In this document: positions 1 to 55,382 of the stretch, in pieces | Position numbering within the stretch: the stretch's first letter is position 1 | Layout of the letters: every line of letters begins with the position of its first letter | Assembly (NCBI RefSeq): GCF_035474595.1 | Contig: NZ_DATIND010000151.1 | Location: 62,001-126,000 of the forward strand | DNA from: Longimicrobium sp. | GTDB lineage: Bacteria > Gemmatimonadota > Gemmatimonadetes > Longimicrobiales > Longimicrobiaceae | Reading direction: 5' to 3' | Length of the DNA: 64,000 bases | Position numbers and translations under genes: made by a program | The notes under the pieces: model-generated | The model's database searches: none | Seen by the model: only the letters and a program-made list of their open reading frames with translations | What the model was told of the DNA's origin: nothing

Positions 1-1824
1 GAAGCCGGCGGGCGCGGCGTGGGTGAGGACGACGGCGGGGGCGCTGTCTTCCAGCATGTAGCGCAGCCGGTCCTCCGGATACTGCGGGTCGAGGGGGACG
101 TAGGCGCCGCCCGCCTTCAGCACCGCGAGGAGCGCGGGGACCAGCTCCAGCCCCCGCTCGGCGCAGATGGCGACGCGCGCGTCCGGCCCGACGCCGAGCG
201 CGCGGAGGTGGCGGGCGAGGCGGTTGGCCGCCGCGTTCAGCTCCGCGTAGGTCAGCGAGCGCTCGCCGTGCAGCACGGCGACGGCGTCCGGCGTGCGCGC
301 GGCCTGCGCCTCCACCAGGTCCTGCATGCAGGCGGCGGGATACGCGGCCTGGCTGCGGTTCCAGTCGTCGAGGAGAAGACGGCGCTCGGACGCGGGGAGG
401 AGGTCGAGCCGCTCCAGCGGGCGCTGGTCGTCCTCCACCATCTCCTCCAGCACGCGGCGGAGGTAGCCCACGTAGCGCTCCACCGTGGCCGCCTCGAACA
501 GCGAGGTGGCGTACTCCAGCCCGCCCACGATGCGCCCCGCCTGCTCCGACATCTCCAGCGACAGGTCGAACTTGGCGGTCACGCGCGCCGAGCCCTCCGG
601 CGTCACCTCCAGCCCGGGGAGCTGCAGCGCCGACCGGGGGACGTTCTGCCAGGCGAACATCACCTGGAACACCGGGTTGTGCGCGAGCGACCGCGCCGGC
701 TCGACCAGCTCCACTACCTGCTCGAACGGGATGTCCTGGTTCTGCTGCGCCTCCAGCGCCCGCGCCTTCACCCGCGCCAGCAGCTCGGCGACGGTCGGCG
801 AGTGGCCGAGATCGACCCGCAGCGCCAGCGTGTTCACGAAGAAGCCGATCAGCCGCTCCACCTCGGCGCGGTTGCGGTTGGCGGTCGGCGTGCCGATGAC
901 CACCTCGTGCTGGCCCGAGAGGCGGCCGAGGACGACCGACCACCCCGCCAGCAGCGTCATGAACAGCGTGGTGCCGTGGCGCTGGCCGAGCGCCTTCAGC
1001 CCCGCCGTCAGCGCCTCGTCCAGCTCCACGCGGACCAGGCCGCCGGCGTGGTCCTGCCGCGCCGGACGCGCGTGGTCCTTGGGCAGCTCCAGCAGCTCGG
1101 GGGCGCCGGCCAGCGTGCGCTTCCAGTACTCGCCCTGCGCCTGCAGCACCTGGTCGTTCACCCAGCGCCGCTGCCACGCCGCGTAGTCGGCGTACTGCAC
1201 GGAAAGCGGGGGGAGGGGATCGCCCTCGCCGCGCAGGAAGGCGCCGTAGAGCGTGGCCATCTCGTCGATCAGCACCCCCACCGACCACCCGTCGGAGACG
1301 ATGTGGTGCATGGCGATGAGGAGCACGTGGTCGTCCTCGGCCAGCCGCACCAGGCGGCCGCGGATGAGCGGCCCGCGCGCCAGGTCGAACGGGCGCGCGG
1401 CCTCCTCGGCCATCAGCCGCTCCAGCTCGGCCGCGGCGTCGGGGTGCGCCGAGATGTCGTGGTCGGTGACGGCGAACGCGGCCCCGGCCGCCGGGGCGAT
1501 GTGCTGCTCCGGCTCCTCGTGCTCGACGCGGAAAACCGTGCGCAGCGGCTCATGGCGCGCGACCACGCCGTCCAGCGCGCGCCCCAGCGCGTCGCGGTCC
1601 AGCCGGCCGCGCATCCGCAGCCGCGCCGTCATGTGGTAGGCGCCGCGCAGCTCGCTCAGGCGGTCCAGGAACCACAGCCGCTGCTGCGCGAACGACAGCG
1701 CCAGCCGCCCGCCGCGGTCCACCGGCTCGATCGGGGACAGCTGCGACCAGCTGCGCTCCAGGTTGGCGGCGCGCGCCAGCTTCAGGAGCCGTTCACGTTC
1801 GGCGATCGTCAGGGTGGCCGTCAT
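1..1824 (-). CDS. NRPS D, N-terminal part (C-A..., cut by window edge)
   Basis: First 608 codons of an NRPS whose 3' end lies beyond base 1. After about 30 residues with no evident docking fold comes a condensation domain of the L-L type (residues about 30-460), with LSFAQQRLWFLDRL near its start and the catalytic HHIVSDG. An adenylation domain opens at about residue 495 and is cut shortly after the LKAGGAYVPLDP motif, before any specificity residue, so the substrate cannot be read. The ATG at 1824 follows gene C by 190 bp. No Shine-Dalgarno sequence is visible; GAGCCGTTG (plus strand 1834-1842) also lies just upstream of NRPS A. The last carrier domain of C is of the subtype that feeds L-L condensation domains, so D very probably continues the chain from C. 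Confidence 0.9.
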   Translation of the reverse strand, partial: MTATLTIAERERLLKLARAANLERSWSQLSPIEPVDRGGRLALSFAQQRLWFLDRLSELRGAYHMTARLRMRGRLDRDALGRALDGVVARHEPLRTVFRVEHEEPEQHIAPAAGAAFAVTDHDISAHPDAAAELERLMAEEAARPFDLARGPLIRGRLVRLAEDDHVLLIAMHHIVSDGWSVGVLIDEMATLYGAFLRGEGDPLPPLSVQYADYAAWQRRWVNDQVLQAQGEYWKRTLAGAPELLELPKDHARPARQDHAGGLVRVELDEALTAGLKALGQRHGTTLFMTLLAGWSVVLGRLSGQHEVVIGTPTANRNRAEVERLIGFFVNTLALRVDLGHSPTVAELLARVKARALEAQQNQDIPFEQVVELVEPARSLAHNPVFQVMFAWQNVPRSALQLPGLEVTPEGSARVTAKFDLSLEMSEQAGRIVGGLEYATSLFEAATVERYVGYLRRVLEEMVEDDQRPLERLDLLPASERRLLLDDWNRSQAAYPAACMQDLVEAQAARTPDAVAVLHGERSLTYAELNAAANRLARHLRALGVGPDARVAICAERGLELVPALLAVLKAGGAYVPLDPQYPEDRLRYMLEDSAPAVVLTHAAPAGF

Positions 1825-2014: not shown

Positions 2015-5000
2015 TCAGGTCACGGGTGCCGGGCGGACCAGCGCCGTCAGGTTGGCGATGTCGATCGCGCTGAACTGGGCCAGCTGCGCGTCCAGGATCG
2101 CGTTCGCGAGCTGCCAGAGCACGGGGTGCTCGAAGACGTCGCCCAGCGCGACGTCCACCTCCATGTGCTGCTTGATGCGGGGCACCAGCTTGCTGGCCAT
2201 CAGCGAATGGCCGCCGAGCTCGAAGAAGTGGTCGTGCCGCCCCACCCGCTCCACGCCCAGCACCTCGCTCCACAGCCGGGCCAGGATCGTCTCGGTCTCG
2301 CCCTCGGGCGCCTCGTAGCCGCGCCGGGCGTAGGCGTCGCCCTCGGGCGCGGGAAGCGCGCGGCGGTCCACCTTCCCCGTCCCCGTGCGCGGCATCGCCT
2401 CCAGCCGCACGTACGCGGCGGGAACCATGTACTCGGGGAGGCGCTCGGCGAGATGCGCCCGCAGCGCGTCCACGTCCGCCTCCTCGCCCACGAAGTAGGC
2501 GACGAGCCGCTTGTCGCCCGGCCCGTCCTCGCGCGCCACGACGACGGATTCGCGGACGGCGGCGTGCTCGGCCAGGCGCGACTCGATCTCGCTCAGCTCG
2601 ATGCGGAAGCCGCGCACCTTCACCTGGAAGTCGTTGCGCCCCACGAACTCCAGCCTGCCATCCGCCTTCCAGCGGACGAGGTCGCCGGTCCGGTAGAGAC
2701 GCGCGCCGGGCTCGCCGCCGAACGGATCGGAGACGAAGCGCTCGGCGGTGAGGTCCGCGCGGTTCCAGTATCCCAGCGCCACGCCGTGCCCGCCGACGTA
2801 CAGCTCGCCGACGGCGCCGGTCGGCACCGGCTCGCATGCCGCGTCGAGGACGTAGACGCGGGTGTTCCCCTTCGGCCGACCGATCGGGACGACGCGCGTA
2901 TCCTCCGTCACCCCCACGACATCGTGGGCGATGGAGAAGCAGGTCGTCTCCGTCGGCCCATAGCAGTTGTAGATGGTGACGCGGCCGCGCTCGGCCAGCA
3001 CCCGCGCGTACGCCGCCGGATCGGCCTTGTCGCCGCCGGTGAGGATCTGCTTCAAGCCCGCGAGCGCGACGGGGATGACCCGCGCGTAATGGTTGAACAG
3101 CACGGGGGTGATGAGGATCGTCGTCACGCCCTGGTTGACCAGCAGCGTGCCGTACGCCTCCGGATCGAGCAGCACGTCCTGCGGCACGACGACGATGCGG
3201 CCGCCGTTCAGCAGCGGCCCCCAAACCTCCATCGTCGCCGCGTCGAACGCCGGGTTCGAGGCGAGGGCGACGCGATCGTCCGCATCCAGGTCCGCGAAGC
3301 CGTTCGTCATCACCAGCTGCGTGATGGCGCGATGCGGAACCATCACCCCCTTCGGCTCGCCGGTCGATCCCGACGTGTACATCACGTAGGCGACGGACTC
3401 GCCGCCGCTGGTGATGCGGAGGTTCTCCGTATCCCCATCGACCACGCGGTCGATGTCGATGCGCTCGACGTTCGGGAGATGCGGAACCTGCTCGCCCGAC
3501 TGGCTGAGCAGCACGCCGCAGCCGCTGTCCGCGACCATGAAGGCGATGCGCTCGGCGGGATACGTCGCATCGAGCGGGACGTACGCGGCGCCCGCCTTCA
3601 GCACCGCCAGCTCCGCGGCGACCAGCTCCGCGGAGCGCGGCAGCAGGATCGCCACGCGCGTCCCCGCGCCGACGCCGCGGGCGGCGAGGTGGTGCGCGAG
3701 GCGGTTCGCGCGAGCGTTCAGCTCCGCGTACGTCACCGTCGCGGCGCCGTCCACGATGGCGGCGGCGGCCGGCGTGCGCTTCGCCCGCGCCTCGAACAGC
3801 TCGTGCACCGCGGACCAGCTGGGGTAGGACGCGGCGGTCGCGTTCCACGTGTGCAGCACCCGCCAGCGCTCGTCCTCGGGCACCAGCGCCAGCCGCTCCG
3901 CGGGGCGGGGGTCGTCGGCCACCATCTCGGCCACCGCGCGGCGGAGGTAGCCGGCGATCCGCTCCACCGTGGCCGCCTCGAAGAGCGACGTCGCGTACTC
4001 CATCCCGCCCACGATGCGGCCGTCCGCCTCGCGCAGCTGCAGCGACAGGTCGAACTTCGACGTCGCCAGCGTGGCGCCCGGGAGCGCCGCGGGCTCCAGC
4101 CCGGGAAGCTGCAGCGTGCCGCGCGGCGCGCTCTGCCAGGCGAACATCACCTGGAAGACCGGGCTGTGCGCCAGCGAGCGGGCGGGCTGCACCAGCTCCA
4201 CCACCTGCTCGAAGGGGATGTCCTGGTTCTGCTGCGCCTCCAGCGCCCGCGCCTTCACCCGCCCCAGCAGCGTGGCGACGGACGGCGAATCGGAGAGGTC
4301 GACGCGCAGCGCCAGCGTGTTCACGAAGAAGCCGATCAGCCCCTCCACCTCGCGCCGCCCGCGGTTGGCCGTGGGCGTGCCGATCACCACGTCGTGCTGT
4401 CCCGACAGCCGGGCCAGCACCGTGGCCCAGGCGGCCATCAGCGCCATGAACGGCGTGGCGCCGTGGCGGCGGGCGAGCGCCTTCACCCCCGCCGTCAGCG
4501 CCTCGTCCAGCTCCAGCGGCAGCGTCGCCCCGGCGTGGTCCTGCCGCGCCGGGCGTGCGTGGTCAAGCGGCAGCTCCAGCAGCTCCGGCGCGCCCGCGAG
4601 CGTGGCCTTCCAGTAGTCCGCCTGCGCGCGGACGGCGCCGCCGTCCACCCAGCGCCGCTGCCAGGCCGCGTAGTCGGCGTACTGCACCGGCAGCGGGGCG
4701 AGCGGGTCGCGCTCGCCGCGGCGGAAGGCGGCGTACAGCGCGCCCAGCTCGTCGGTCAGCACGCCCATCGACCACGCGTCGGAGACGGCGTGGTGCAGGG
4801 TCACCAGCAGCACGTGGTCGTCGTCCGCCAGGCGGATCAGCCGGGCGCGCGCCAGCGGCCCGCGCGACAGGTCGAACGCCGCCGTGGCCTCGTCGGCCAT
4901 CAGCCGGTCCAGCATCTGCTCCGCGTCGCCGTGCTCGCGCAGGTCGTGCTCGCGCAGGGGGAAGCGCGCGTCGGAGACGGGGGCGATGCGCTGCTCCGGC

Positions 5001-8000
5001 TCGCCATCGTTCCCGGCGAAGGTGGTGCGCAGCGCCTCGTGGCGCTCGGCGATGCGGTCCAGCGCGCGGACCAGGGCGGTGCGGTCCAGCTCGCCGCGCA
5101 GCCGCACGCGGCTGCGGACGTGGTACGCGGGGCCCAGGTCGCCCAGCTGCTCCAGGAACCAGAGCCGCTGCTGCGCGTGCGACAGCGGCAGCGCCGCGCC
5201 GCGGTCCGCGCGCCCGATGGGCGGCAGATCGGCGCGCGCGGCGGCGTCCAGCGTCCGCGCGAACTCGGCCAGCGTCGGGCGGTCGAAGAGCTCGCCGAGC
5301 GCGGCCTCTACCCCCAGCACCTGCCGCACGCGCGAGATCATCCGCACGGCCACCAGCGAGTGGCCGCCCAGCTCGAAGAAGCCGTCGCGGCGGCCGACCC
5401 GATCGGCCCCCAGAACCTCGGCCCAGATCTCCGCCAGCGCCGACTCGGTCTCGCCCACCGGCGCCTCCCACTCGCGCGCGGCGAACGCGTCACCCTCGGG
5501 CGCGGGGAGCGCGCGGCGGTCCAGCTTGCCGTTGGGCGTCAGCGGGAACGCGTCCATCCTGACGTACGCCGCGGGCACCATGTACTCCGGCAGCGCGGCG
5601 GCGAGATGCGCCCGCAGCGCCTCGGTCTCCCCCTCGCCCACGAAGTAGGCGGCGAGGCGCCGGTCGCCCGGCACGTCCTCGCGCGCCACCACCACGGCCT
5701 CGCGGATGCCGGGGAAGGCGGCCAGGCGCGCCTCGATCTCGCCCAGCTCGATGCGGAAGCCGCGGACCTTTACCTGGAAGTCGTTGCGGCCCAGGAACTC
5801 CAGAACCGAAGTGCGTGAGTGCGGGAGTGCGGCAGTGCGTCCATCGCGCGCGGAGGACGTACTTCCGCACTCACGCACTTTCGCACTTTCGCACCATCTC
5901 GCGAGGTCGCCCGTGCGGTACATCCGCGCGCCGGGCGTGGACGCGAACGCATCGGGGACGAAGCGCTCGGCGGTGAGCGCCGGGCGGCCGAGGTATCCCC
6001 GCGCCACGCCCGCGCCGCCGATGTACAGCTCGCCCGCCACCCCGGCCGGCACCGGCTCGCCGCGTCGGTCCAGGAGATAGAAGCGCGTGTTCGCCAGCGG
6101 CCCGCCGATCGCCACCGAAGCGGTGGAGAGGGAGCCGTCCGCGTCCACCGGCTGCACCGACGACCAGATGGTGGTCTCCGTCGGCCCGTACACGTTCCAC
6201 AGTGCGCCGACCCGCTCGCGCAGCCGCGCGGCCAGCTCGGCCGGCAGCGCCTCGCCGCCGCAGAGGGCGCGGAGATTCGCATCGCCCTCCCACCCGGCGT
6301 CCACCAGCATCCGCCAGGTCGCGGGCGTGGCCTGCATCACCGTCGCCCCGCCCGCGGCGATGGCGCGCATCAGCGCCTCCGGGTCGGCCGACGAGGCGCG
6401 GTCCAGCAGCTCCACCCGCGCGCCGGTGACCAGCGGGAGGAAGAGCTCCAGGACGGAGATGTCGAAGGAGATGGTGGTGACGGCGATGAGACGATCGGCG
6501 GGCGTCATCCCGACCGTCCCGCCGATCGACGCGAGGAGGTTCACCACGCCCCCGTGCGTGTTCATCACCCCCTTCGGCTCGCCCGTGGAGCCGGAGGTGT
6601 AGATGACGTACGCCAGGTTCCCGGGCCGCACCCGCCCGCGCGCCGGGTTCGCCGCGGACAGATCGGCCCACGTCCCCGCGTCCGCGTCCAGCCGGAAGAC
6701 GGGGATCTCCATCCCCCCGAAACGGTCCGACAGCGATGCCTGGGTGAGCACCACCGCGGGCGCGCCGTGGCGGAGGACGTAGCCGACGCGGTCCGCCGGG
6801 TACGCGGGATCGAGCGGGACGTAGGCGCCGCCCGCCTTCAGCACGGCGAGCAGGGCCACCATCATCTCCACCCCGCGCTCCGCGCAGACGGCCACCCGCA
6901 CGTCCGCCCCCACGCCGCGCGCGATCAGCGCATGTGCGAGGCGGTTGGCGCGCGCGTTCAGCTCGCCGTACGTCACCTGCTCCCCGTGGAAGACGAGGGC
7001 AACGGCGTCCGGCGTCCGCGCGGCCTGCGCCTCGACCAGCTCGTGCACGCAGGCGCCGGGATACGCGGCCTCGGTTGCGTTGCGCGCCTCGAGGGCGGCG
7101 CGGCGCTCGGCGGCGGGGAGGACGTCCACGCGGGCCAGCGGCCGCGCGGGCGCCGTCTCCAGCGCCTCGGCCAGCCCTTCCAGCGCGCGGTGCATCATCG
7201 CGCAGACGCGGTCCGCGCCCACCGACGCGGGGGCTACGGAGGTCAGCGACAGCGCCTCGCCGCGGTCGTCCACCGACAGGGTGAGCGGATAGTTGGTGCG
7301 GCCGACGCCGTAGATCGGCTCGAAGTCCGAGGCACGTGCCGCCTTCCCCGCCCCGCCGCCACTGTGGCGGTAGTTCAGCAGCGCGGTGAAGAGCGGCGCC
7401 GGGGCCTCCACCCCGCTGCAGCGCTGCGCCAGCGCCAGCGAGGCGTGCTCGTGGCGCAGCAGCTCGGCCAGCTGCCGGTGCGCGCCGCGCACGGCGGCCT
7501 CGGCGCCCTCGTCCGCCACGCGCACGCGGACGGGGAGGGTGTTGTTGAAGAGCCCGAGCACGCGGTCCGCGCCCTCGCCGCCCTTCATCCGGCCGAAGAG
7601 CACGGTGCCGAACACCACGTCGTCGCGGCCGGAGACGCGGGCGAGCACCTGCGCCCACGCCACGTGGCAGAGGGCGGCCGCGCTCACGCCCAGCTTCCGC
7701 GCGCGGTCGCGCAGCGTCGCGGCGAGCTTCCCGTCCACCGGGAGACGGGCCTCGGCCACGCCCGAGCCGTCGCCGCGCACGTCCAGCAGCCCGAACGGCG
7801 CGGTGGGCTCGTCCACGTCCGCCAGCAGCTTGCGGAAGTACGCCTCGTGCTCGGCGCGGCTCACGCCCAGGCGCGCCTGCGCCACGTAGTCGCGGAACGG
7901 CAGCGGTGCGGGGAGCGAGGCCGCGCGCCCCAGCAGGTGCGCCTCCACCTCGGCCTGCAGGACTTCCTGCGCCTGGTGGTCGCTCACCAGGTGGTGGCGC

Positions 8001-11000
8001 AGCACCAGCAGCAGCCAGCGTCCGCGCGCTTCGTCGCGGGCCACCACGGCGCGCATGATCGGCGCGCGGCGCACGTCCAGCCGGTGCAGCCGCGGGTCGA
8101 AGCGGTCGTACAGCCGGCGGACGGCATCGCCCTCCCCCTCCAGCTCCACTTCCTCGACGGGGAGCACGGCGCGGCGGCAGACCACCTGCACCGGCTCGCG
8201 CAGCCCTTCCCACATCACCGCCGTCCGCAGCACGTCGTGGCGGTCGATCACCGCCTGCAGCGCGCCCAGGTACGCGTCCAGCCGCCAGCGCGTGTCGAAG
8301 CCGTACACGACGGCGAGGAGATACGGATCGCCCTCCGCGGCCAGCAGGTGGTGGAAGAGGATCCCCTCCTGCAGCGGGGCCAGCGGGTAGATGTCCTGCA
8401 CGTTGGCCGCGCCGCCCTCGACGCCCGCGACGACCCGGTCGATCTCCCCCTGCCCCAGCTCCACCAGCGGGAGCATGGCCGGGGTGATGGCGGTGCACGG
8501 CGTGGGGATGCGGTTGGCGGGGACGGCCACGTCGCTCGACTTGCTCCTCACCACCCCCGCCAGCTCGGCCAGCGAGGTGGTGGTGAAGAGCGCGCTGACC
8601 TCGGCGTGCAGCCCGCGCTTGCGCATCCGCCCGGCCACCATCATCGCCCGCAGCGAGTGGCCGCCCAGCTCGGCGAAGTTGTCCCACCGCCCCACGCGCT
8701 CCACGCCCAGCACCTGGCACCAGATCTCCGCCAGCGCCTCCTCGGTCTCCCCCTGCGGCGCCTCGAAGCCGCGGCGCGCGAAGGCGTCGTCCTCGGGCGC
8801 GGGAAGGGCGCGGCGGTCCAGCTTGCCGTTGGGCGTGCGCGGCAGCTCGTCCAGCGCCAGGCAGGCCGCGGGGACCATGTACTCGGGCAGCCGCTCGGCC
8901 AGGTGCGCCCGCAGCGCGTCGGCATCGACGGCCCCGTCCGCCACGTAGTAGGCCACGAGGCGCCGGTCGCCGGGCGAGTCCTCGCGGGCGATGACGACCG
9001 CTTCGCGGATCTGGGGATGATCGATCAGGCGCGACTCGATCTCGCCCAGCTCGATGCGGAAGCCGCGCACCTTCACCTGCGCGTCGGCGCGCCCCATCAC
9101 CTCGATCGCCCCGTCCGCCAGCCAGCGGCCCAGGTCGCCCGTGCGGTAGAGGCGCGCGCCCGCCTCGCCCGAGAACGGGTCGGCCACGAAGCGCTCCGCC
9201 GTCAGCTCGGGGCGGTTCCGGTATCCCCGCGCCACCTGCACGCCGCCGATGTACAGCTCGCCGACCACGCCGGCGGGCACCGGCTGCGCGTCGCCGTCCA
9301 GCACGTACATCCGCACGTTCGCCATCGGGTGGCCGATGGGGATGCGGTCGCGCTCGTCGCCGGCGGCGCAGCTCCACTCGGTGACGTCCACCGCGGCCTC
9401 GGTCGGCCCGTAGACGTTGTAGAGGCGCGTGTCGGGGAGATGCTGGTGGAAGCGCTTCACCAGCTCCGGCGGCAGCGCCTCGCCGCCGCAGACCACGCGC
9501 TTCAGGTGGGTGCACTCGCCGAAGTCCGCCTCCTGCACCAGCACCTGCAGCATCGAGGGGACGAAGTGCAGCGTCGTCACGCGCTCGCGGCGGATCGTCT
9601 CCAGCATGTAGCGCGCGTCGCGGTGGCCGCCGGGACGGGCGACCACCATCCGCGCGCCGACCAGCAGCGCCGGGATCAGCTCGCGGAGCGAGGCGTCGAA
9701 GCTGTACGGCGTCTTCTGCAGCACCACGTCGGTCGAATCCAGCCGCCACGCCGCGTTCATCCAGGCGAGGACGTTCACGATCGCGCGGTGCTCGACCATT
9801 ACCCCCTTGGGCTGGCCCGTCGACCCCGAGGTGTAGATGAGGTACGCCAGGTGGTTCGGGGTGACCGCGCGCTCCGGATTCGTCTCCGGGAGATGCGACC
9901 ACGCCGCCGCGTCGCGGTCCAGCGCCACGACGGGAACGCCGAGCCCGCCGAAGCGGTCCGCCGACGCGCCGCAGGTGAGGAGGACGGCGGGCTCGCTGTC
10001 CACCAGCATGTAGCGCAGCCGCTCCTCGGGATACTCGGGGTCCAGCGCGACGTAGGCGCCGCCCGCCTTCAGCACGCCCAGCAGCCCGGCCATCATCTCC
10101 AGGCTCCGCTCGACGCAGAGGCCCACGCGCACGTCCGGCCCCACGCCGCGCGCCACCAGGTGATGCGCGATGCGGTTCGCCCGGGCGTTCAGCTCGCGGT
10201 AGGTGATCGAATCGCCCTCGAAGGTCAGCGCGAGCGCGTCCGGCGTCCGCTCCACCTGCGCCTCGAAGAGGTGGTGGAGACAGGCGGCATGGGGATACTC
10301 CGCGGCGGTCGCGTTCCATCCCTCCACCACCTGCCGGCGCTCCGCCTCGGGGAGCACCTCGATGGCGCGCAGCGGGCGCTCGGGCGCCGTCTCCAGCGCG
10401 TCCACCAGCCCGGCCAGCGCGCGCTCCACCAGCGCGCACACGCGGCCGGGGCCGACGGACGCGGGGGCGAAGACCTTGAACGACAGCGACTCGCCGCGGT
10501 CGTCCACGTTCAGGGTGAGCGGGTAGCTGTTGCGCGTCAGCATGCGCAGGCGCCGGATCCCCTCGGGGAGCCCGGCCTGGGCGGGCGTCTGCTCGCCCAG
10601 CGCGCGGCTGTGGCGGTAGTTCAGCAGCGCGGTGAACAGCGGCGCCGGCGCCTCCACCCGGCTGCAGCGCTGCGCCAGCGCCAGCGACGCGTTCTCGTGG
10701 CGCAGCAGCCCGGCCAGCTGCCGGTGCGTGGCCAGCACGCCGCCCTCCGCCCGCTCGGCGCCCACGCGCACGCGGAAGGGGAGGGTGTTCATGAACGGCC
10801 CCAGCACGCGGTCGGCGCCCTCGCCGCCCTGCATGCGGCCGAAGAGCACGGTGCCGAACACCACGTCGTCGCGGCCGGAGACGCGCGCCAGCACCTGCGC
10901 CCACGCCACGTGGCAGAAGCTGGCGGCGCTCACGCCCAGCCGCCGCGCGCGGTCGCGCAGGCGGATGGCGAGCGCGGGGTCCACCGCCAGCACGCCCTCG

Positions 11001-14000
11001 TCCAGGTCCAGCCCGTCGCCCCAGGCGTCCGCCAGCCCGAACGGCGCCGTCGGCTCTTCCACGTCGCCCAGCAGCGCGCCGAAGAACGCCTCGTGCTCGG
11101 CCTGCGTCACCCGCATCCGCGCGCGCGCCACGTGGTCGCGGAAGGCGATCGGCTCGGGAAGCTCGCCCCCGCGGCCGGCCAGGTGCGCGTGGATCTCGTC
11201 CTCCAGCGCCTCCTTGGTCACGTGGTCGGCCACCACGTGGTGAAGCTGGTCCAGCAGCACCCAGCCGCCGTCCTCGCCGCGCGCGGCGTACAGGCGGATG
11301 AGCGGCGCGCGGCGCAGGTCCATCCGCCGCCGCAGCGGCGCGACCCAAGTCCACAGGCGCCGGGCGGCGTCGCCCTCGCCGGGCTCCAGCTCGACCTCGA
11401 CCACCTCCAGCTTCGCCCGGCGCCACACCACCTGCACCGGCTCGCGCAGCCCCTCCCACGCAACCGACGAGCGCAGCACGTCGTGCCGGTCGATCACCGC
11501 CTGCAGCGCGGCCACGTACGCGTCCAGCCGCTCGCGGCTCTCGAACAGGCTGATCCCCGCCAGCACGTACGGGTCGCCGTCTTCCGCCATCAGGTGGTGG
11601 AAGAGGATTCCCTCCTGCAACGGGGCCAGCGGGTAGATGTCCTGCACGTTCGCCGCGCCGCCGTCCACGGTCGCCACGATGCCGTCGATCTCCCCCTGCG
11701 CCAGCTCCACCAGCGGCAGCATCTCGGGGGTGATGGCGTCGCACGCGGCGGGGATGCGGCTCGCGGGGACCTCGATCTCGCGCGCCTCGGTGCCGGCGAC
11801 CGCGGCCAGGCGGGCCAGCGTGGGCGCGCCGAACAGGTCCTGCACGCGGGCGTGCAGGCCGCGCTGGCGCATGCGCTCGGTCAGCTTCACCGCCAGCAGC
11901 GAGTGGCCGCCCAGCTCGAAGAAGTTGTCGCCGCGGCCGACGCGCGCCACGCCCAGCAGCTCGGCCCAGATCTCCGCGAGCACGGCTTCCGTCTCGCCCT
12001 CGGGCGCCTCGTAGCCGCGCGCCGCGAAGGCGCCGGCGTCCGGCGCGGGAAGCGCGCGGCGATCCACCTTGCCGTTCGGCGTCAGCGGGAGCGCCTCCAG
12101 CCGCACGAACGCGGCGGGCACCATGTACTCGGGCAGCCGCTCCGCCGCGAACGCGCGCAGCGCCTCCGCGTCGATCGCCGCGTCCGCGACGTACCACGCC
12201 ACCAGCCGCGGGTCGCCGGCGCTTTCGCGCGCGAGGACGACGGCGGCGCGCACCTGCGGATGCCCGGCCAGCCGCGTCTCGATCTCGCCCGGCTCGATGC
12301 GGAAGCCCCGCACCTTCACCTGGAAGTCGTTGCGCCCCAGGAACTCGATCGTCCCGCCCGCCCGCCAGCGCACGAGATCGCCCGTCCGGTACATCCACGC
12401 GCCCGGCTCGGCGGCGAACGGATCGGGGACGAAGCGCTCGGCCGTGAGCCCGGGCCGGCCGAGGTAGCCGCGCGCCACGCTCGCGCCGCCGACATACAGC
12501 TCGCCCGCGACGCCGACGGGCACCGGCTCGCCGCGCGCGTCCAGCACGTAGACCTGCGTGTTGGCGATGCCGCGCCCGATGTGCAGCCGGTCCGCCGCGC
12601 CGACCTCGCCCGAGGTCGCGACGACCGTCGTCTCCGTCGGCCCGTAGTTGTTGATGACGGTGTAGCGCGCGTCCGCCGGAAGCGTCCGCAGCCGGTCGCC
12701 GCCGACGAGCAGCGTCCTCAGGGTCGCGGGGGCGATGCCTCGCTCGAACGCGAGCTCGGCCAGCGGCGTGGGGAGGAAGCACACGTCCAGCGGCTGCTTC
12801 GCCCACCACTCCAGCAGCGCCTCGGGATCGCGCGCGGCGGGAAGGTGCAGCGCGGCGCCCGCGCACAGCGGCGGCCAGATCTCCCACGTGCTCGCGTCGA
12901 ACCCGAAGCCCGCTACGCTGGACGACCGGTCGCCCTCGCGCAGCGCGAACGCATCGCAGTGCCAGGCGACCAGGTTGCCCAGGCTGCGGTGCTCCACCTG
13001 CACGCCCTTCGGCGTCCCCGTCGATCCCGAGGTGTAGACGACGTACGCCAGGTGCCCCGCGTCCAGCCCGACGCTCTCGCGCGCAGGATTCGTGGCGTCG
13101 CGATCCGCCCACGCCGCATCGTCGCCCAGGTCGAGGACGGGGAGATCTACATCCGCGAAGCGCGCGGCGAGCGACGCCTGCGTCAGCAGGGCGACGGGGG
13201 CGCTGTCCGCGAGCATGTAGCGCAGCCGCTCGTCGGGATACGCGGGATCCATCGGCACGTACGCACCGCCCGCCTTCACCACGGCGAGCAGCGCTTCCAC
13301 CATCTCCGTCCCCCGCTCCACGCAGACGGCGACGCGCGAATCCGGGCGGACGCCGAGCGCGCGGAGGTGGTGCGCGAGGCGGTTGGCGCGCGCGTTCAGC
13401 TGCGCGTACGTCAGCGCCCCGCGCTCGGAGACGACGGCGTCCGCGTGCGGCGTCCGCGCGGCCTGCGCCTCGAAGCGCTGGTGGATGCACAGGTCGCGCG
13501 GGTAGTCCAGCGCGGTTGCGTTCCACGTCTCCACCACCTGCCGGCGCTCGGCGTCGGGGAGGAGGGAGATGGAATCCACGCGCTGGCCGTCGCCGGCCAC
13601 CATCGCCTCCAGCACGCGGCGGAGGTAGCCCATCCACCGCTCCACCGTCTCCGCCTGGAAGAGCGACGTCGCGTACTCCACCCCGCCGGCGATCCGTCCC
13701 CCCACCTCCTGCAGCGACAGCGACAGGTCGAACTTGGCCGACGGCTGCGGCGAGCGCTCCAGCACGGCGGGCGCCAGGCCCGGCAGCGCCAGGCGGCTGC
13801 GCCGCACGTTCTGCCACGAGAACACCACCTGGAACACCGGGTTGTGCGCCAGGCTGCGCGTGGGCTGCACCCGGTCCACCACCTGCTCGAAGGGGAGGTC
13901 CTGGTTGTGCTGCGCGGCGATCGCGCGCTCCCGCACCCGCCCCAGCAGCTCCGCCACCGTCGGCGCGTCGGCGAGGTCGATCCGCAACGCCAGCGTGTTC

Positions 14001-15220
14001 ACGAAGAAGCCGATCAGCCCCTCGATCTCGCCCCGCCCGCGGTTGGCCACCGGCGACCCGATCACCACGTCCGTCTGCCCCGCCAGGCGGCCGAGCACCA
14101 CCGCCCAGCCGGCCAGCAGCGTCTGGTACAGCGTGGTCCCGTGGCGGCGGCCCAGCGCCTTCAGCCCGGCCGTCAGCGCCTCGTCCAGCTCCAGCGCGAC
14201 GGAGGCGCCGGCGTGGTCCTGCCGCGCGGGGCGGGCGTGGTCCAGCGGCAGCTCCAGCAGCTCGGGAATGCCGGCCAGCGCGCGGCTCCAGTACGCCGCC
14301 TGCTCCTCCAGCACCTCGTCCTCCACCCACCGGCGCTGCCACGCGACGTAATCCGCGTACTGCACCGGCAGCGCGGGAAGCGGGTCCGCCGCGCCGCGCC
14401 GGAACGCCGGGTACAGCACCCCTAGCTCGTCCACCAGCACCTCCATCGACCAGCCGTCGGCCACGATGTGGTGCAGGGTGACGAGCAGCACGTGGTCGTC
14501 CGCGGCCAGCCGCACCAGCCGGCCGCGCGCCAGCGGCCCGTTCTCCAGGTCGAAGGGCGCCACCGCCTCCTCGGCGATCAGGCGGCGAAGCTCGGCGTCC
14601 GCCTGCGGATCGGCCGAGAGGTCGTGGTGGGCGAGGGGGAAGCGGGACGACTCAGCCGGGGCCACGCGCTGCTCCGGCTCGCCGTCCATCGCGTGGAAGC
14701 TGGTGCGCAGCGCCTCGTGGCGGTGGACGATACGGTCGAGCGCGCGGGCCAGCGCCTCGGCGTCCAGCTCGCCGCGCAGCCACAGCTGGCGGGGGATGTT
14801 GTACACGCCGGGAAGGCCCAGCTGCTCCAGGAACCACACGCGCTGCTGCGCGAAGGAGAGCGCCAGCCGGCCGCCGCGGTCCGCCGCGGCGATGGGCGGC
14901 AGCTCCGCGTGCGCCGCCTGCGCCACCCCGCGCGCGAACTCGGCCAGCACCGGCCGCTCGAACACCTCGCCCACCGCCACGTCCACGCCCAGCGCCTGGC
15001 GCACGCGCGCGGCCACCCGCGCGCCCAGCAGCGAGTCGCCGCCCAGCGCGAAGAAGTCGTCGCCGCGGCCCACGCGCGGGGCGCGCAGCACCTGCTGCCA
15101 GATCTCCGCGACCGCCGCCTCCACCTCGCCCACGGGCACGGCGTACCCCGGCCACCCGTCGCCGCCCTGCGGGGCGGGAAGGTGTCCGGCCGAGCTGCTC
15201 GTTCCGACGTCACTGCGCAT
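2015..15220 (-). CDS. NRPS C, 4401 aa: PCP-(C-A-PCP)-(E/C-A-PCP)x2-(C-A-PCP)
   Basis: Multimodular NRPS. Carrier domains have their serine near residues 62 (LGGDSL), 1106, 2188, 3287 and 4339 (LGGHSL). Condensation domains lie at about 110-550 and 3330-3770 (HHIVADG, HHAVSDA). Dual E/C domains lie at about 1170-1610 and 2240-2700, with the extended N-terminal HHx5GD motif plus HHVVADH and HHLVSDH. Adenylation domains begin near 582, 1651, 2726 and 3808. Pocket codes read by alignment to GrsA are DAWFLGNVVK (Leu), DARHVGVVDK (closest to Glu DAKDLGVVDK), DILQLGVIWK (Gly) and DAMLLGCCFK (hydrophobic, no close match). The E/C domains imply D-Leu and D-Glu-like residues. The protein begins inside a module: a short LPAPQ tail typical of an adenylation-domain end, then a carrier domain with no partner. 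The third adenylation domain carries a 25-residue repeat-derived insertion. The ATG at 15220 is chosen because homologous sequence begins there; the frame stays open to 15460 but reads as low-complexity. Confidence 0.95.
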   Translation of the reverse strand: MRSDVGTSSSAGHLPAPQGGDGWPGYAVPVGEVEAAVAEIWQQVLRAPRVGRGDDFFALGGDSLLGARVAARVRQALGVDVAVGEVFERPVLAEFARGVAQAAHAELPPIAAADRGGRLALSFAQQRVWFLEQLGLPGVYNIPRQLWLRGELDAEALARALDRIVHRHEALRTSFHAMDGEPEQRVAPAESSRFPLAHHDLSADPQADAELRRLIAEEAVAPFDLENGPLARGRLVRLAADDHVLLVTLHHIVADGWSMEVLVDELGVLYPAFRRGAADPLPALPVQYADYVAWQRRWVEDEVLEEQAAYWSRALAGIPELLELPLDHARPARQDHAGASVALELDEALTAGLKALGRRHGTTLYQTLLAGWAVVLGRLAGQTDVVIGSPVANRGRGEIEGLIGFFVNTLALRIDLADAPTVAELLGRVRERAIAAQHNQDLPFEQVVDRVQPTRSLAHNPVFQVVFSWQNVRRSRLALPGLAPAVLERSPQPSAKFDLSLSLQEVGGRIAGGVEYATSLFQAETVERWMGYLRRVLEAMVAGDGQRVDSISLLPDAERRQVVETWNATALDYPRDLCIHQRFEAQAARTPHADAVVSERGALTYAQLNARANRLAHHLRALGVRPDSRVAVCVERGTEMVEALLAVVKAGGAYVPMDPAYPDERLRYMLADSAPVALLTQASLAARFADVDLPVLDLGDDAAWADRDATNPARESVGLDAGHLAYVVYTSGSTGTPKGVQVEHRSLGNLVAWHCDAFALREGDRSSSVAGFGFDASTWEIWPPLCAGAALHLPAARDPEALLEWWAKQPLDVCFLPTPLAELAFERGIAPATLRTLLVGGDRLRTLPADARYTVINNYGPTETTVVATSGEVGAADRLHIGRGIANTQVYVLDARGEPVPVGVAGELYVGGASVARGYLGRPGLTAERFVPDPFAAEPGAWMYRTGDLVRWRAGGTIEFLGRNDFQVKVRGFRIEPGEIETRLAGHPQVRAAVVLARESAGDPRLVAWYVADAAIDAEALRAFAAERLPEYMVPAAFVRLEALPLTPNGKVDRRALPAPDAGAFAARGYEAPEGETEAVLAEIWAELLGVARVGRGDNFFELGGHSLLAVKLTERMRQRGLHARVQDLFGAPTLARLAAVAGTEAREIEVPASRIPAACDAITPEMLPLVELAQGEIDGIVATVDGGAANVQDIYPLAPLQEGILFHHLMAEDGDPYVLAGISLFESRERLDAYVAALQAVIDRHDVLRSSVAWEGLREPVQVVWRRAKLEVVEVELEPGEGDAARRLWTWVAPLRRRMDLRRAPLIRLYAARGEDGGWVLLDQLHHVVADHVTKEALEDEIHAHLAGRGGELPEPIAFRDHVARARMRVTQAEHEAFFGALLGDVEEPTAPFGLADAWGDGLDLDEGVLAVDPALAIRLRDRARRLGVSAASFCHVAWAQVLARVSGRDDVVFGTVLFGRMQGGEGADRVLGPFMNTLPFRVRVGAERAEGGVLATHRQLAGLLRHENASLALAQRCSRVEAPAPLFTALLNYRHSRALGEQTPAQAGLPEGIRRLRMLTRNSYPLTLNVDDRGESLSFKVFAPASVGPGRVCALVERALAGLVDALETAPERPLRAIEVLPEAERRQVVEGWNATAAEYPHAACLHHLFEAQVERTPDALALTFEGDSITYRELNARANRIAHHLVARGVGPDVRVGLCVERSLEMMAGLLGVLKAGGAYVALDPEYPEERLRYMLVDSEPAVLLTCGASADRFGGLGVPVVALDRDAAAWSHLPETNPERAVTPNHLAYLIYTSGSTGQPKGVMVEHRAIVNVLAWMNAAWRLDSTDVVLQKTPYSFDASLRELIPALLVGARMVVARPGGHRDARYMLETIRRERVTTLHFVPSMLQVLVQEADFGECTHLKRVVCGGEALPPELVKRFHQHLPDTRLYNVYGPTEAAVDVTEWSCAAGDERDRIPIGHPMANVRMYVLDGDAQPVPAGVVGELYIGGVQVARGYRNRPELTAERFVADPFSGEAGARLYRTGDLGRWLADGAIEVMGRADAQVKVRGFRIELGEIESRLIDHPQIREAVVIAREDSPGDRRLVAYYVADGAVDADALRAHLAERLPEYMVPAACLALDELPRTPNGKLDRRALPAPEDDAFARRGFEAPQGETEEALAEIWCQVLGVERVGRWDNFAELGGHSLRAMMVAGRMRKRGLHAEVSALFTTTSLAELAGVVRSKSSDVAVPANRIPTPCTAITPAMLPLVELGQGEIDRVVAGVEGGAANVQDIYPLAPLQEGILFHHLLAAEGDPYLLAVVYGFDTRWRLDAYLGALQAVIDRHDVLRTAVMWEGLREPVQVVCRRAVLPVEEVELEGEGDAVRRLYDRFDPRLHRLDVRRAPIMRAVVARDEARGRWLLLVLRHHLVSDHQAQEVLQAEVEAHLLGRAASLPAPLPFRDYVAQARLGVSRAEHEAYFRKLLADVDEPTAPFGLLDVRGDGSGVAEARLPVDGKLAATLRDRARKLGVSAAALCHVAWAQVLARVSGRDDVVFGTVLFGRMKGGEGADRVLGLFNNTLPVRVRVADEGAEAAVRGAHRQLAELLRHEHASLALAQRCSGVEAPAPLFTALLNYRHSGGGAGKAARASDFEPIYGVGRTNYPLTLSVDDRGEALSLTSVAPASVGADRVCAMMHRALEGLAEALETAPARPLARVDVLPAAERRAALEARNATEAAYPGACVHELVEAQAARTPDAVALVFHGEQVTYGELNARANRLAHALIARGVGADVRVAVCAERGVEMMVALLAVLKAGGAYVPLDPAYPADRVGYVLRHGAPAVVLTQASLSDRFGGMEIPVFRLDADAGTWADLSAANPARGRVRPGNLAYVIYTSGSTGEPKGVMNTHGGVVNLLASIGGTVGMTPADRLIAVTTISFDISVLELFLPLVTGARVELLDRASSADPEALMRAIAAGGATVMQATPATWRMLVDAGWEGDANLRALCGGEALPAELAARLRERVGALWNVYGPTETTIWSSVQPVDADGSLSTASVAIGGPLANTRFYLLDRRGEPVPAGVAGELYIGGAGVARGYLGRPALTAERFVPDAFASTPGARMYRTGDLARWCESAKVRECGSTSSARDGRTAALPHSRTSVLEFLGRNDFQVKVRGFRIELGEIEARLAAFPGIREAVVVAREDVPGDRRLAAYFVGEGETEALRAHLAAALPEYMVPAAYVRMDAFPLTPNGKLDRRALPAPEGDAFAAREWEAPVGETESALAEIWAEVLGADRVGRRDGFFELGGHSLVAVRMISRVRQVLGVEAALGELFDRPTLAEFARTLDAAARADLPPIGRADRGAALPLSHAQQRLWFLEQLGDLGPAYHVRSRVRLRGELDRTALVRALDRIAERHEALRTTFAGNDGEPEQRIAPVSDARFPLREHDLREHGDAEQMLDRLMADEATAAFDLSRGPLARARLIRLADDDHVLLVTLHHAVSDAWSMGVLTDELGALYAAFRRGERDPLAPLPVQYADYAAWQRRWVDGGAVRAQADYWKATLAGAPELLELPLDHARPARQDHAGATLPLELDEALTAGVKALARRHGATPFMALMAAWATVLARLSGQHDVVIGTPTANRGRREVEGLIGFFVNTLALRVDLSDSPSVATLLGRVKARALEAQQNQDIPFEQVVELVQPARSLAHSPVFQVMFAWQSAPRGTLQLPGLEPAALPGATLATSKFDLSLQLREADGRIVGGMEYATSLFEAATVERIAGYLRRAVAEMVADDPRPAERLALVPEDERWRVLHTWNATAASYPSWSAVHELFEARAKRTPAAAAIVDGAATVTYAELNARANRLAHHLAARGVGAGTRVAILLPRSAELVAAELAVLKAGAAYVPLDATYPAERIAFMVADSGCGVLLSQSGEQVPHLPNVERIDIDRVVDGDTENLRITSGGESVAYVMYTSGSTGEPKGVMVPHRAITQLVMTNGFADLDADDRVALASNPAFDAATMEVWGPLLNGGRIVVVPQDVLLDPEAYGTLLVNQGVTTILITPVLFNHYARVIPVALAGLKQILTGGDKADPAAYARVLAERGRVTIYNCYGPTETTCFSIAHDVVGVTEDTRVVPIGRPKGNTRVYVLDAACEPVPTGAVGELYVGGHGVALGYWNRADLTAERFVSDPFGGEPGARLYRTGDLVRWKADGRLEFVGRNDFQVKVRGFRIELSEIESRLAEHAAVRESVVVAREDGPGDKRLVAYFVGEEADVDALRAHLAERLPEYMVPAAYVRLEAMPRTGTGKVDRRALPAPEGDAYARRGYEAPEGETETILARLWSEVLGVERVGRHDHFFELGGHSLMASKLVPRIKQHMEVDVALGDVFEHPVLWQLANAILDAQLAQFSAIDIANLTALVRPAPVT
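5808..5894 (-). repeat. Palindromic 8-bp-unit repeat inserted in frame in NRPS C
   Basis: Left arm 5809-5824 is the exact reverse complement of right arm 5865-5880. Both arms are built from 8-bp units (GTGCGTGA, GTGCGGGA; TTCGCACT, CACGCACT). Read on the minus strand it adds about 25 codons to the third adenylation domain, between the A7 motif (TGDLARW) and LEFLGRNDF before the A8 hinge, giving CESAKVRECGS...ALPHSRTSVL where relatives have six residues such as LPDGNI. The frame is preserved. The same unit occurs in an intergenic array at 60511-60542, so this is a genomic repeat and not NRPS sequence. Confidence 0.9.
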
Positions 15221-15267
15221 GGACGAAATACGGGGTCGTTGGGTGGGCAAAGGTCCCGGTCGAACGG

Positions 15268-15291
15268 CCGGCCCCGCCGCGGCGGGGCCGG
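15268..15291. promoter_or_regulatory. 24-bp perfect palindrome upstream of NRPS C
   Basis: Two 12-base arms, CCGGCCCCGCCG and its exact reverse complement, with no spacer. It lies 48-71 bp upstream of the ATG of NRPS C in the leader on the minus strand. It could be a protein-binding site or a very stable leader hairpin. There is no T-run on either side, so it is not a typical intrinsic terminator. Function is inferred from position only. Confidence 0.3.
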
Positions 15292-15633
15292 TCCTGTCGG
15301 TGGAGGCGGGCGGATGTCCGCCTCTGTCTGTGCGTGTGTGTGCCTGCCGAGGGGGGTGCGTCCACTGCGGAGCTGCGTCCTCCACCATCAGCCGCCCCGG
15401 AGCCGCGCGCGCTCCGGTCCCGTCCTGCCGCCTCCGTGGTCCCGGGAGCCCGGGAGCCATGCGGTGGCGGGTTCACTCCGTATGTTCACCGGCGTCCGCT
15501 CGATGGCGCCTTCGCAGCGCCATTGCCGGACGGGGAACGCTCCGCCGGTCCGTCATCGCCCTCGCCGGGCGATCCACCGCTCTCCGCCGCCGGGTGCGGG
15601 GACGCACCCGGTGTACGCCCGTTCAGCCGTTTG

Positions 15634-15657
15634 GGGTCACCGCTGGTACGGTGACCC
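15634..15657 (-). terminator. Hairpin after NRPS B
   Basis: Perfect 9-bp inverted repeat (GGGTCACCG / CGGTGACCC) with a 6-base loop, 63 bp downstream of the NRPS B stop codon. It lacks a T-run on the minus strand, as is common in very GC-rich genomes. It is a candidate transcription end or 3'-stabilising hairpin for the A-B operon. Confidence 0.45.
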
Positions 15658-15719
15658 GGCCGGGCGGGTTTCACATCCGCCGATCGATGCCGTAAGGAAA
15701 TCGGGTCCGGGCAGGCAGG

Positions 15720-39469
<23,750 letters not shown>

Positions 39470-39473
<4 letters not shown>

Positions 39474-42400
39474 AGCCGGAACTCCTGCACGTGCTCGGTG
39501 ACCGCGGCCAGCCCGGCCAGCGTGGGGGTGGTGAACAGGTCGCCGACCTCGGCGTGCAGGTCGCGCTGCCGCATCATCTCGAACAGGCGCACCGCCAGCA
39601 GCGAGTGGCCGCCCAGCTCGAAGAAGTTATCCGTGCGCCCCACGCGCTCCACGCGCAGCAGCTCGGCCCAGATCTCCGCGAGCACTTCCTCCGTCTCGCC
39701 CACCGGCGCCTCGTAGCCGCGCGCCGCGAAGGCGCCGGCGTCGGGCGCGGGAAGCGCGCGGCGGTCCACCTTGCCGTTGGGCGTCAGCGGCAGCGACTCC
39801 AGCCGCACGAAGGCGGCGGGGATCATGTACTCCGGCAGCCGCTCGCCGACGAACGCGCGCAGCGTCTCCGGCTCGATCGCCGCGTCGGCCACGTACCACG
39901 CCACCAGCCGCGGCCCGCCCGGCGCATCCTCGCGCGCCAGGACGACGGCCGCGCGCACCTGCGGATGATCCGCCAGCCGCGTCTCGATCTCCCCCGGCTC
40001 GATGCGGAAGCCGCGCACCTTCACCTGGAAGTCGTTGCGGCCGAGGAACTCGATCGTCCCATCCGCCAGCCAGCGGACGAGGTCGCCCGTGCGGTACATC
40101 CGCGCGCCCGGCCCGGCGCTGAACGGATCGGGGATGAATCGCTCCGCCGTGAGACCGGGCCGGCCGAGGTAGCCGCGCGCCACGCCCGCCCCGCCGACGT
40201 ACAGCTCGCCCGCGACGCCGACGGGCACCGGCTCGCCGCGCGCGTCCAGCACGTAGACCTGCGTGTTGGAGATGCCGCGCCCGATGTGCAGCCGCGCCGC
40301 CGTCCCGACGATGCCGGATGTGGCGACGACCGTCGTCTCCGTCGGCCCGTAGTTGTTGACGACGGTGTAGATGGCGTCCGCCGGGAGCGTCCGCAGCCGG
40401 TCGCCGCCGACGAGGAGCGTGCGCAGCGTCTTCGGGGCGATGCCTCGCTCGAAGGCGAGCTCGGCCAGCGGCGTGGGGAGGAAGCACACGTCCAGCGGCT
40501 GCCTCGCCCACCACTCCAGCAGCGCCTCCGGATCGCGCGCGGCGGGGAGATGGAGCGCGGCGCCCGCGCAGAGCGGCGGCCAGATCTCCCACGTGCTCGC
40601 GTCGAACCCGAAGCCCGCGACGCTCGAAGACCGATCACCCTCGCGCAGCGCGAACGCGTCGCAGTGCCAGGCGACCAGGTTGCCCAGGCTGCGGTGCTCC
40701 ACCTGCACGCCCTTCGGCGTCCCCGTCGAGCCCGACGTGTAGACGACGTACGCCAGGTGCCCCGCGTCCAGCCCGACGCTCTCGCGCGCCGGGTTCGCCG
40801 CGTCACCATTCGCCCACGCCGCATCGTCGCCCAGGTCGAGCACGGGGACGTCGATGCCGGTGAACCGCGCCGCCAGCGATGCCTGCGTCAGCAGGGCGAC
40901 GGGGGCGCTGTCCGCGAGCATGTAGCGCAGCCGCTCGTCCGGGTACGCAGGGTCCATCGGCACGTACGCGCCGCCCGCCTTCACGACGGCGAGCAGCGCT
41001 TCCACCATCTCCGTCCCCCGCTCCACGCAGACCGCGACACGCGAATCCGGCCGCACACCCATCGCGCGCAGGTGGTGCGCGAGGCGGTTGGCGCGCGCGT
41101 TCAGCTGCGCGTACGTCACCGTCCCCCGCTCGGAGACGACGGCGTCCGCGTGCGGCGTCTGCACCGCCTGCGCCTCGAAGCGCTGGTGGATGCAGAGCTC
41201 GCGCGGGTAGTCCAGCGCGGTGGCGTTCCACGTCTCCACCACCTGCCGGCGCTCTTCACCGGCCAGCAGCGGGATCGATGCGACGCTCCGGCGCTCGTCC
41301 GCCACCATCCCCGCCAGCACGCGGCGGAGGTAGCCCATCCACCGCTCCACCGTCTCCGCCTGGAAGAGCGCGGTCGCGTACTCCACCCCGCCCACGATCC
41401 GCCCGTCGCGCTCGGAAAGGGTCAGCGAGAGGTCGAACTTCGCCGTCGCCTGCGCGGCCCCGCCGACGGAGCCCACGGCCAGGCCGGGGAGCTCCAGCCG
41501 CCCCTGCGGCGTGCTCTGCCAGGCGAACATCACCTGGAAGAGCGGCGTGTGCGCCAGGCTGCGCACCGGCTGCACCAGCTCCACCACCTGCTCGAAGGGG
41601 ATGTCCTGGTGGTGCTGCGCCCCCAGCGCCCGCTCCCGCACCCGCCCCAGCAGCGCGGCGGCGGAAGGCGCGTCCGCCAGGTCGATGCGCACCGCCAGCG
41701 TGTTCACGAAGAAGCCGATCAGCCCCTCGATCTCGCTCCGCCCGCGGTTCGCCGTCGGCGTGCCGAGAACCACGTCGCCCTGCCCGGCCAGGCGGCCGAG
41801 AACCACGGCCCACGCGGCCATCAGCGTCATGAACGGCGTGGTGCCGTGGCGCTGGCCGAGCGCCTTCACCGCCGCCGTCAGCGCCTCGTCCAGCTCGAAG
41901 CCCAGCGACGCGCCCGCGTGGTCCTGCCGCGCCGGGCGCGGATGGTCGGTGGGCAGCTCCAGCCGCTCGGGAGCGCCGGCCAGCGTATCGCGCCAGTAGT
42001 CCGCCTGCCGCCGCAGCACCTCGCCGTCCACCCAGCGGCGCTGCCAGGCCGCGTAGTCGGGGTACTGGACGGGGAGCGGCGGAAGCGGATCGGCGGCGTC
42101 CCGGCGGAAGGCGCCGTACAGCGCGCCCAGCTCGTCGGTCAGCACGCCCATCGACCACGCGTCGGAGACGATGTGGTGCAGGGTGATGAGCAGCACGTGG
42201 TCGTCGGCCGCCAGCCGGATCAGCCGCCCGCGCACCAGCGGCCCGCGCTCCAGGTCGAACGGCGCGCCGGCCTCGCCCGCCGCCAGCCGCCGCAGCTCGG
42301 CCTCGGGGCCGGCGTGCGCGGACAGGTCGTGCTCGCGGAGATGGAACCGGCTCTCCTCCGCGCGCGCCACGTGCTGCGCCGGCTCGCCGTCCACGGTGCG

Positions 42401-54783: not shown

Positions 54784-54802
54784 CCTTCACCACGGATCGA
54801 TC

Positions 54803-54837
54803 GAGGGGCGGGGATGACGATGTCTCCCCCGCCCCGC
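54803..54837 (+). terminator. GC-rich hairpin after the hydroxylase gene
   Basis: GGGGCGGGG (54805-54813) pairs exactly with CCCCGCCCC (54827-54835), 20 bp after the hydroxylase stop codon. It is flanked by two copies of CGGATCGATCG (54793-54803 and 54838-54848). There is no T-run. It may reduce read-through from the hydroxylase gene into the MbtH gene. Confidence 0.4.
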
Positions 54838-54854
54838 CGGATCGATCGCGAACA

Positions 54855-54875
54855 GCCTCGCGCGGTTTGCGAGGC
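54855..54875 (+). terminator. Second hairpin between hydroxylase and MbtH genes
   Basis: GCCTCGC and GCGAGGC form a 7-bp stem with a 7-base loop, followed by a short pyrimidine stretch (TTCCC). It lies in the same 234-bp spacer as the hairpin at 54803-54837. It may be a weak terminator or a processing structure. Confidence 0.3.
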
Positions 54876-55017
54876 TTCCCGTAGTTGTTGCCGCGACTTC
54901 AGTCGCCGGTGAAGCTGGACCCGCGCGCTTCAAGCCCGGGGGACACGCCGAATCGCCTTCGATTTGCGGCGTCCATCCCCCTGCGACTCATCCGACCTAC
55001 TCTCGAGAGACACCGAC

Positions 55018-55230: not shown

Positions 55231-55256
55231 GCCGTCCCCGGCTCCGCAGGGACGGC
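55231..55256 (+). terminator. Hairpin directly after the MbtH gene
   Basis: GCCGTCCC (55231-55238) and GGGACGGC (55249-55256) form a perfect 8-bp stem with a 10-base loop, starting at the base after the MbtH stop codon. It has no T-run. It could end or stabilise the mbtH message ahead of the aminotransferase gene. Confidence 0.4.
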
Positions 55257-55382
55257 GAATCATCGCCAGAAACGGCGGAGAGCGAGGGGGGATTCCGGTT
55301 TCCCCGCGCCTCCGCCGCTCCATCGTGGGGACGTGCGCGAGCACCCGCCCGCGCGCCCGACTCCATCTACCCGGAACACCCG

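Follow-up and report, generated by a model that had tools for sequence, protein, structure and literature searches.

Product prediction usually reads the units incorporated by nonribosomal peptide synthetases (NRPSs) from gene order and from the adenylation (A) domains present in cis. An NRPS protein that opens with a carrier domain, with no A domain before it, raises the question of how this carrier is charged and where the protein acts in its assembly line. We addressed this question for a window of 64,000 nucleotides from Longimicrobium sp. (contig NZ_DATIND010000151.1, positions 62,001 to 126,000), which is part of a contig of 144,554 bases (C151) in a 6.57 Mb draft genome of 163 contigs (G000). 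Domain mapping with our own hidden Markov models (HMMs) identified five consecutive minus-strand NRPS genes, designated NRPS A to NRPS E in gene order, with extension modules that sum to 22 over the five proteins (4+3+4+4+7). The protein in question is NRPS C. In the explanation we favour, and consider rather probable, NRPS C heads a line C-D-E-A-B, and its N-terminal carrier, PCP1, serves as a loading carrier charged in trans.

The start of NRPS C

A sequence-only reading had described NRPS C (4401 aa; 2015 to 15220, minus strand) as opening with a carrier that lacks an A domain and is followed by a condensation (C) domain, a description borne out by Pfam and HMM scores as well as by the corresponding junction in a congener (see below). 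Based on the open reading frame (ORF) and its translation, our own HMMs, and Pfam searches of the first 1400 codons, the architecture of NRPS C is PCP1-C-A-PCP-C*-A-PCP-C*-A-PCP-C-A-PCP (PCP, peptidyl carrier protein domain) with no thioesterase (TE); the domains marked C* scored 324 to 337, as compared to 615 to 619 for the other two C domains with the same profile. The plausible start codon is the ATG at 15220, and the frame stays open up to 15472. An N-terminal tail (15122 to 15220, minus strand) that begins MRSDVGTSSSAGHLPAPQGGDGWPGY is followed by PCP1 (14930 to 15121, minus strand; 86 bits with our own HMM), which was identified as a PP-binding domain at residues 36 to 97 from the ATG (Pfam PF00550; 52.3 bits, cut-off 20.8) and carries the phosphopantetheine serine of its LGGDSL motif at codon 15034-15032.

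PCP1 is directly followed by a condensation match (Pfam PF00668, 408 bits; the piece searched extends into the second C domain). The first condensation domain, C1 (13532 to 14866, minus strand), scored 619 bits by itself with our own profile, has an intact HHIVADG motif, and belongs to what we take to be the LCL class. Cyclization (Cy) domains carry the motif DxxxxD; no Cy domain, as would be expected in an aryl-carrier siderophore start, was found behind PCP1, as C1 has HHIVADG and its best matches are ordinary C domains. With regard to a possible lipoinitiation by a starter C domain, C1 grouped with the LCL-like C domains of the cluster in a comparison that included no labelled starter-C reference set. 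The top-scoring solved relatives of C1 belong to teixobactin synthetase (Txo2, 463.8 bits; Txo1, 459.1 bits), a likeness at the level of single domains. C1 is followed by A1 (12062 to 13474, minus strand), the specificity code of which, DAWFLGNVVK, presumably denotes Leu and is common to four A domains of the cluster.

Upstream of the ATG, a gap of 499 bases (15221 to 15719, minus strand) separates NRPS C from NRPS B, and the earlier claim that this gap holds no remnant of an A domain also stood. A six-frame search that covered 497 of its 499 bases, with E values pooled with those for the congener's gap, revealed no A remnant in the gap of either species (best E values of 0.87, 0.89, and 0.98 for the A, A C-terminal, and PCP profiles, respectively), and an A domain hidden in the gap was rejected; the best E value for a C profile, 0.046, came from the congener's gap. 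No match to promoter-like or terminator-like sequence was found in the 499 bases. A split module in which NRPS B would contribute a terminal A domain was ruled out as well, as NRPS B (15720 to 39473, minus strand; 7 modules) ends A-PCP-TE-TE, with the tandem TE region at 15864 to 17171 (minus strand). This tandem TE at the end of the preceding gene had not been part of the sequence-only reading.

The same junction was present in a congener (genome G001, contig C221; locus L033), where a PCP-TE-TE end and a stop are followed, after approx. 360 bases, by a gene whose product opens with a carrier followed by a C domain and whose ATG has an in-frame stop six codons ahead of it. The PCP-TE-TE ends of the two species are 59% identical over 593 residues, and the two C1 domains are reciprocal best BLAST matches (77%) that form a pair with 100/99 support in a tree of 27 LCL-type C domains from both genomes and with an SH-aLRT value of 100 in an 82-row tree. 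Moreover, a TauD gene (82%) lies beside the NRPS A orthologue in both species, and in G001 this orthologue is also adjoined, on the opposite strand, by a 73% relative of the aminotransferase. The phosphopantetheine serine of PCP1 (LGGDSL) and the histidines of C1 are intact in both species; the congener's C1 motif is HHLVSDQ and thus is among the 25 of 108 LCL-type domains in which the final G is missing. The code of the first-module A domain differs, i.e., DAWFLGNVVK in NRPS C and DILQLGVIWK in G001.

As NRPS repeats are prone to misassembly, a fused A domain could in principle have been dropped from the contig; the separate assembly of the other species, however, shows the matching junction with a stop just upstream, and we thus consider an assembly artefact exceedingly improbable. 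An intact A domain fused upstream in relatives, which the sequence-only reading had named as evidence for such an error, was absent from the one congener with an orthologous junction. Given the profile scores and the conservation in a second species, chance can be excluded, and these data confirm that the carrier start without an A domain is real.

Among 70 loci from broader relatives, one (L104, positions 151 to 1959, Streptomyces sp. TSRI0281) showed a PCP-C ORF start away from the locus edge; this start overlaps another frame, and a frameshift is possible. The two best DNA matches opened in a plasmid collection lie inside longer NRPS genes, and the best protein identity in this collection was below 60%. 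The Eleftheria terrae DNA match sits within a longer NRPS gene. A third PCP-C start, found in G001 (contig C178), joined the C1 pair with 91/94 support in the 27-row tree and fell outside the pair in the 82-row tree; if the three starts do form one lineage, the carrier start would be inherited rather than an accident.

Probable order of the proteins in the assembly line

We compared the termini of the five proteins, picked by hand, using z scores. NRPS A (39470 to 52354, minus strand; 4 modules) has a TubC_N docking domain (27.9 bits; Pfam cut-off 26), and NRPS B has a TubC_N-like N-terminus (22.8 bits). By eye, NRPS D (1 to 1824, minus strand, continuing outside the window to C151:52761) and NRPS E share a helical N-terminal peptide, and NRPS C and NRPS D share a C-terminal LDAQLAQF (z 7.1 between the two tails). 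The C-termini of NRPS E and NRPS A are VELIL and VQEFRL, respectively. At the N-terminus of NRPS C, Pfam gave no match to TubC_N, the helical peptide of NRPS D and NRPS E was not seen, and no docking domain was recognised.

The tail of NRPS E matched two gene tails of another congener, G009 (z 7.9 and 10.0), and the genes directly after these tails have N-termini that match that of NRPS A (z 48.1 and 44.4) and, with lower scores, that of NRPS B (z 17.3 and 19.5). As E-like tails in G009 precede A-like N-termini, NRPS E probably hands over to NRPS A, and these docking elements suggest a biosynthetic order of C-D-E-A-B rather than the gene order A-B-C-D-E. This order accounts for the docking domain on NRPS A, for the absence of a TE from NRPS E, and for the absence of a recognisable docking domain from NRPS C. 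NRPS C is thus probably first in the whole line, a point that goes beyond the sequence-only reading, and in the C-D-E-A-B order PCP1 would be the carrier on which a predicted line of 22 modules, ending in a tandem TE, is loaded. Gene order is thus probably a wrong guide to the order of synthesis here, and a prediction from gene order and A domains in cis would overlook the first unit.

Alternatively, PCP1 may act as a relay onto which another NRPS, or a transferase, passes an acyl or peptidyl chain that is already complete. Other systems are known in which chains move from carrier to carrier, and an LCL-type C1 could accept a peptidyl donor; however, NRPS B ends TE-TE and NRPS C has no recognised N-terminal docking domain, and we regard a relay as very unlikely. 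In the favoured explanation, with NRPS C as the first protein, an adenylating or acyl-transferring enzyme encoded outside the cluster would load PCP1 with a starter in trans, the LCL-like C1 would condense this starter with the first extender, which is predicted to be Leu, and, after 22 extension modules from NRPS C to NRPS B, the tandem TE of NRPS B would release the product.

Possible charging of PCP1

Several results weigh against NRPS C as the first protein with a PCP1 charged in trans. The docking order is a deduction from sequence, the N-termini of NRPS A and NRPS B are alike (z 20.2), and the TubC_N match of NRPS B lies under the cut-off; pairs of short linear motifs (SLiMs) and beta-hairpins, which occur at PCP/C junctions, can be promiscuous according to PMC9113145. 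In addition, neither the cluster nor the examined stand-alone AMP-binding genes of the draft genome yielded a dedicated loader. Of 14 stand-alone ORFs with an AMP-binding match elsewhere in the genome, nine were scanned with NCBIfam, and at E ≤ 1e-100 none of these nine belonged to the amino-acid adenylation family; seven fell into coenzyme A (CoA) ligase families (three above a curated cut-off), and two gave no match within this threshold. Two of the ligases are shared widely and are thus not tied to the cluster, i.e., a benzoate-CoA-ligase-like enzyme (C46:65893), rejected as a dedicated loader by its presence in 10 of 10 genomes of the genus, and a 489-aa ligase (C46:150035), rejected likewise (6 of 10 genomes). 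Finally, PCP1 has the highest dN/dS (ratio of nonsynonymous to synonymous substitution rates) estimate of the 23 carriers of NRPS A to E (0.79; bootstrap interval 0.46 to 1.44, 82 codons), which fits relaxed constraint; estimates for the other carriers range from 0.19 to 0.64, with some upper limits reaching 1.35, in an uneven comparison that sets PCP1 against its orthologue and each other carrier against the most similar G001 carrier.

The sequence-only reading had suggested looking for a stand-alone adenylation or acyl-CoA ligase gene near the cluster. None was found on C151, where each of the 27 AMP-binding matches falls within an NRPS gene that encodes a carrier as well. Among 19 ORFs scanned in the C151 flanks, only one, the A-PCP gene F, has an AMP-binding domain, and a loader in these flanks was rejected. 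The other flank ORFs include glyoxalase/HPPD-like, aminotransferase, Ldh_2, HlyD, ABC, sigma-54 regulator, carbamoyltransferase, MacB, and TauD genes, and 4 of 10 ORFs in one flank set had no family match. The five stand-alone ORFs outside the NCBIfam naming are those on C14, C140, C81, and C97 and at C7:23612; four of the five have a G001 relative by BLAST. The domain map left out NRPS pieces on C144, C69, C146, C77, C32, and C100 beyond 20 kb, and a loader may have been missed because the genome is a draft.

The start carrier of the 22-module line may also have no dedicated loading gene anywhere, with an in-line A domain serving two carriers or a housekeeping CoA ligase doing the charging, a possibility we consider rather unlikely. 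In G001, an acetoacetyl-CoA-synthetase-like gene (locus L034, C178, positions 758 to 2746) lies directly upstream of the NRPS with the third PCP-C start, an arrangement that, if this explanation were true, would exemplify charging by a housekeeping CoA ligase. As a common loader this enzyme was rejected, as it had no match in G000 at E ≤ 1e-60 among the 57 of 153 candidates scored.

Charging of PCP1 by an in-line A domain, e.g., the Leu-type A1 of NRPS C or the last Leu-type A domain of NRPS B, would agree with the occurrence of the code DAWFLGNVVK in more than one A domain of the cluster and with the lack of a free amino-acid-type A gene in the searches made. A precedent exists in yersiniabactin synthesis, where, according to PMC9547227 and PMC7539972, HMWP2 has an A domain that serves three carriers, both in cis and in trans. 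On the other hand, the differing A1 codes of the two species argue against A1 as a conserved loader, and we judge charging by an in-line A domain to be distinctly unlikely.

The main rival to charging in trans is that PCP1 is a relic, i.e., that recombination in the A-PCP linker removed the starter A domain and that the chain now starts with module 1 (Leu), bypassing PCP1 and C1. Such a loss, one of the options offered by the sequence-only reading, is a plausible origin of the carrier start. The same reading had taken the N-terminal residues of NRPS C for the tail that follows the A10 motif of an A domain. This is secure only in part; the LPAP of NRPS C resembles a remnant of an A-PCP linker (LPxP occurs in 144 of 149 A-PCP linkers mapped on fetched contigs), but the congener's orthologue has QPPP in its place. 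The high dN/dS estimate of PCP1 and the search that yielded no loader also agree with a relic. However, PCP1 is retained in two species with its serine and GGDSL intact, and the estimate for C1 is 0.37. Between species, 34 of 42 residues are identical in the N-terminal half of PCP1, around the serine, as compared to 25 of 46 in the C-terminal half, although the same gradient is general among the carriers here (0.65 vs. 0.36). PCP1 is also the only one of the 23 carriers with GGDS, the other 22 having GGHS; the congener's PCP1 likewise has GGDS, which occurs in 8 of the 165 carriers handled. Overall, we regard a bypassed relic as possible but unlikely. Among the options of the sequence-only reading (a separate A enzyme, an acyl-transfer enzyme, or loss of the starter A domain), charging in trans is the best supported; a stand-alone amino-acid-type A gene was found neither on the contig nor among the stand-alone AMP-binding genes examined.

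Aryl-carrier starts loaded by a separate enzyme are known from PchE/PchD, and in pristinamycin I synthesis (SnbA/SnbC) a separate 3-hydroxypicolinate ligase serves an NRPS protein that opens with a carrier. The likeness to the latter is one of general architecture, and precursor and NRPS genes are known there; PMC6963833 names genes and units. HMWP2 of yersiniabactin synthesis likewise has an N-terminal aryl carrier protein (ArCP) domain loaded by a separate A domain, YbtE, as described in PMC9547227. Like HMWP2, NRPS C opens with a carrier that no A domain precedes in cis, its place as the first protein being drawn from the docking elements; in HMWP2/YbtE and PchE/PchD, however, the carrier is followed by a Cy domain and the ligase is known, whereas in NRPS C an LCL-like C domain follows and no dedicated ligase was found. 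NRPS C may thus work like the HMWP2/YbtE kind, as an analogue rather than a proven member. In WS9326A synthesis, the A domains Cal22 and Cal23 also supply amino acids to an NRPS in trans; these domains, however, supply Thr5 and Asn6 rather than a starter and are located in the cluster (PMC7539972). A logic free of C domains, described in PMC12186527, was set aside. Few published accounts of such carrier starts were found, and we do not claim that the layout has never been published. If a starter carrier has no fixed A domain, it would also represent a natural entry point for altering the first unit of a long peptide.

Neighbouring genes

Upstream of the NRPS operon and divergent from it, a TauD-family gene, an MbtH-like protein gene (55018 to 55230, plus strand; PF03621, 81.4 bits), and a gene for a pyridoxal phosphate (PLP) aminotransferase (likely start 55377) occupy positions 53752 to 56570 of the window. 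MbtH-like proteins are partners of A domains. Carbamoyltransferase and MacB/FtsX-type genes adjoin the operon at C151:32539-34554 and 36525-39485. A methyltransferase is inserted in the first A domain of NRPS D (module 1) at C151:59784-60950, outside the window, and the residue of this module may be N-methylated.

Left of the window, a row of glyoxalase/HPPD-like, aminotransferase, and Ldh_2-family genes (C151:17695-21383) adjoins a separate pair of A-PCP and four-module NRPS genes; we presume that this row may be a 4-hydroxyphenylglycine supply cassette. Overall, the genome carries a high NRPS load, with 112 matches to AMP-binding domains and 107 to PP-binding domains over its 6.57 Mb.

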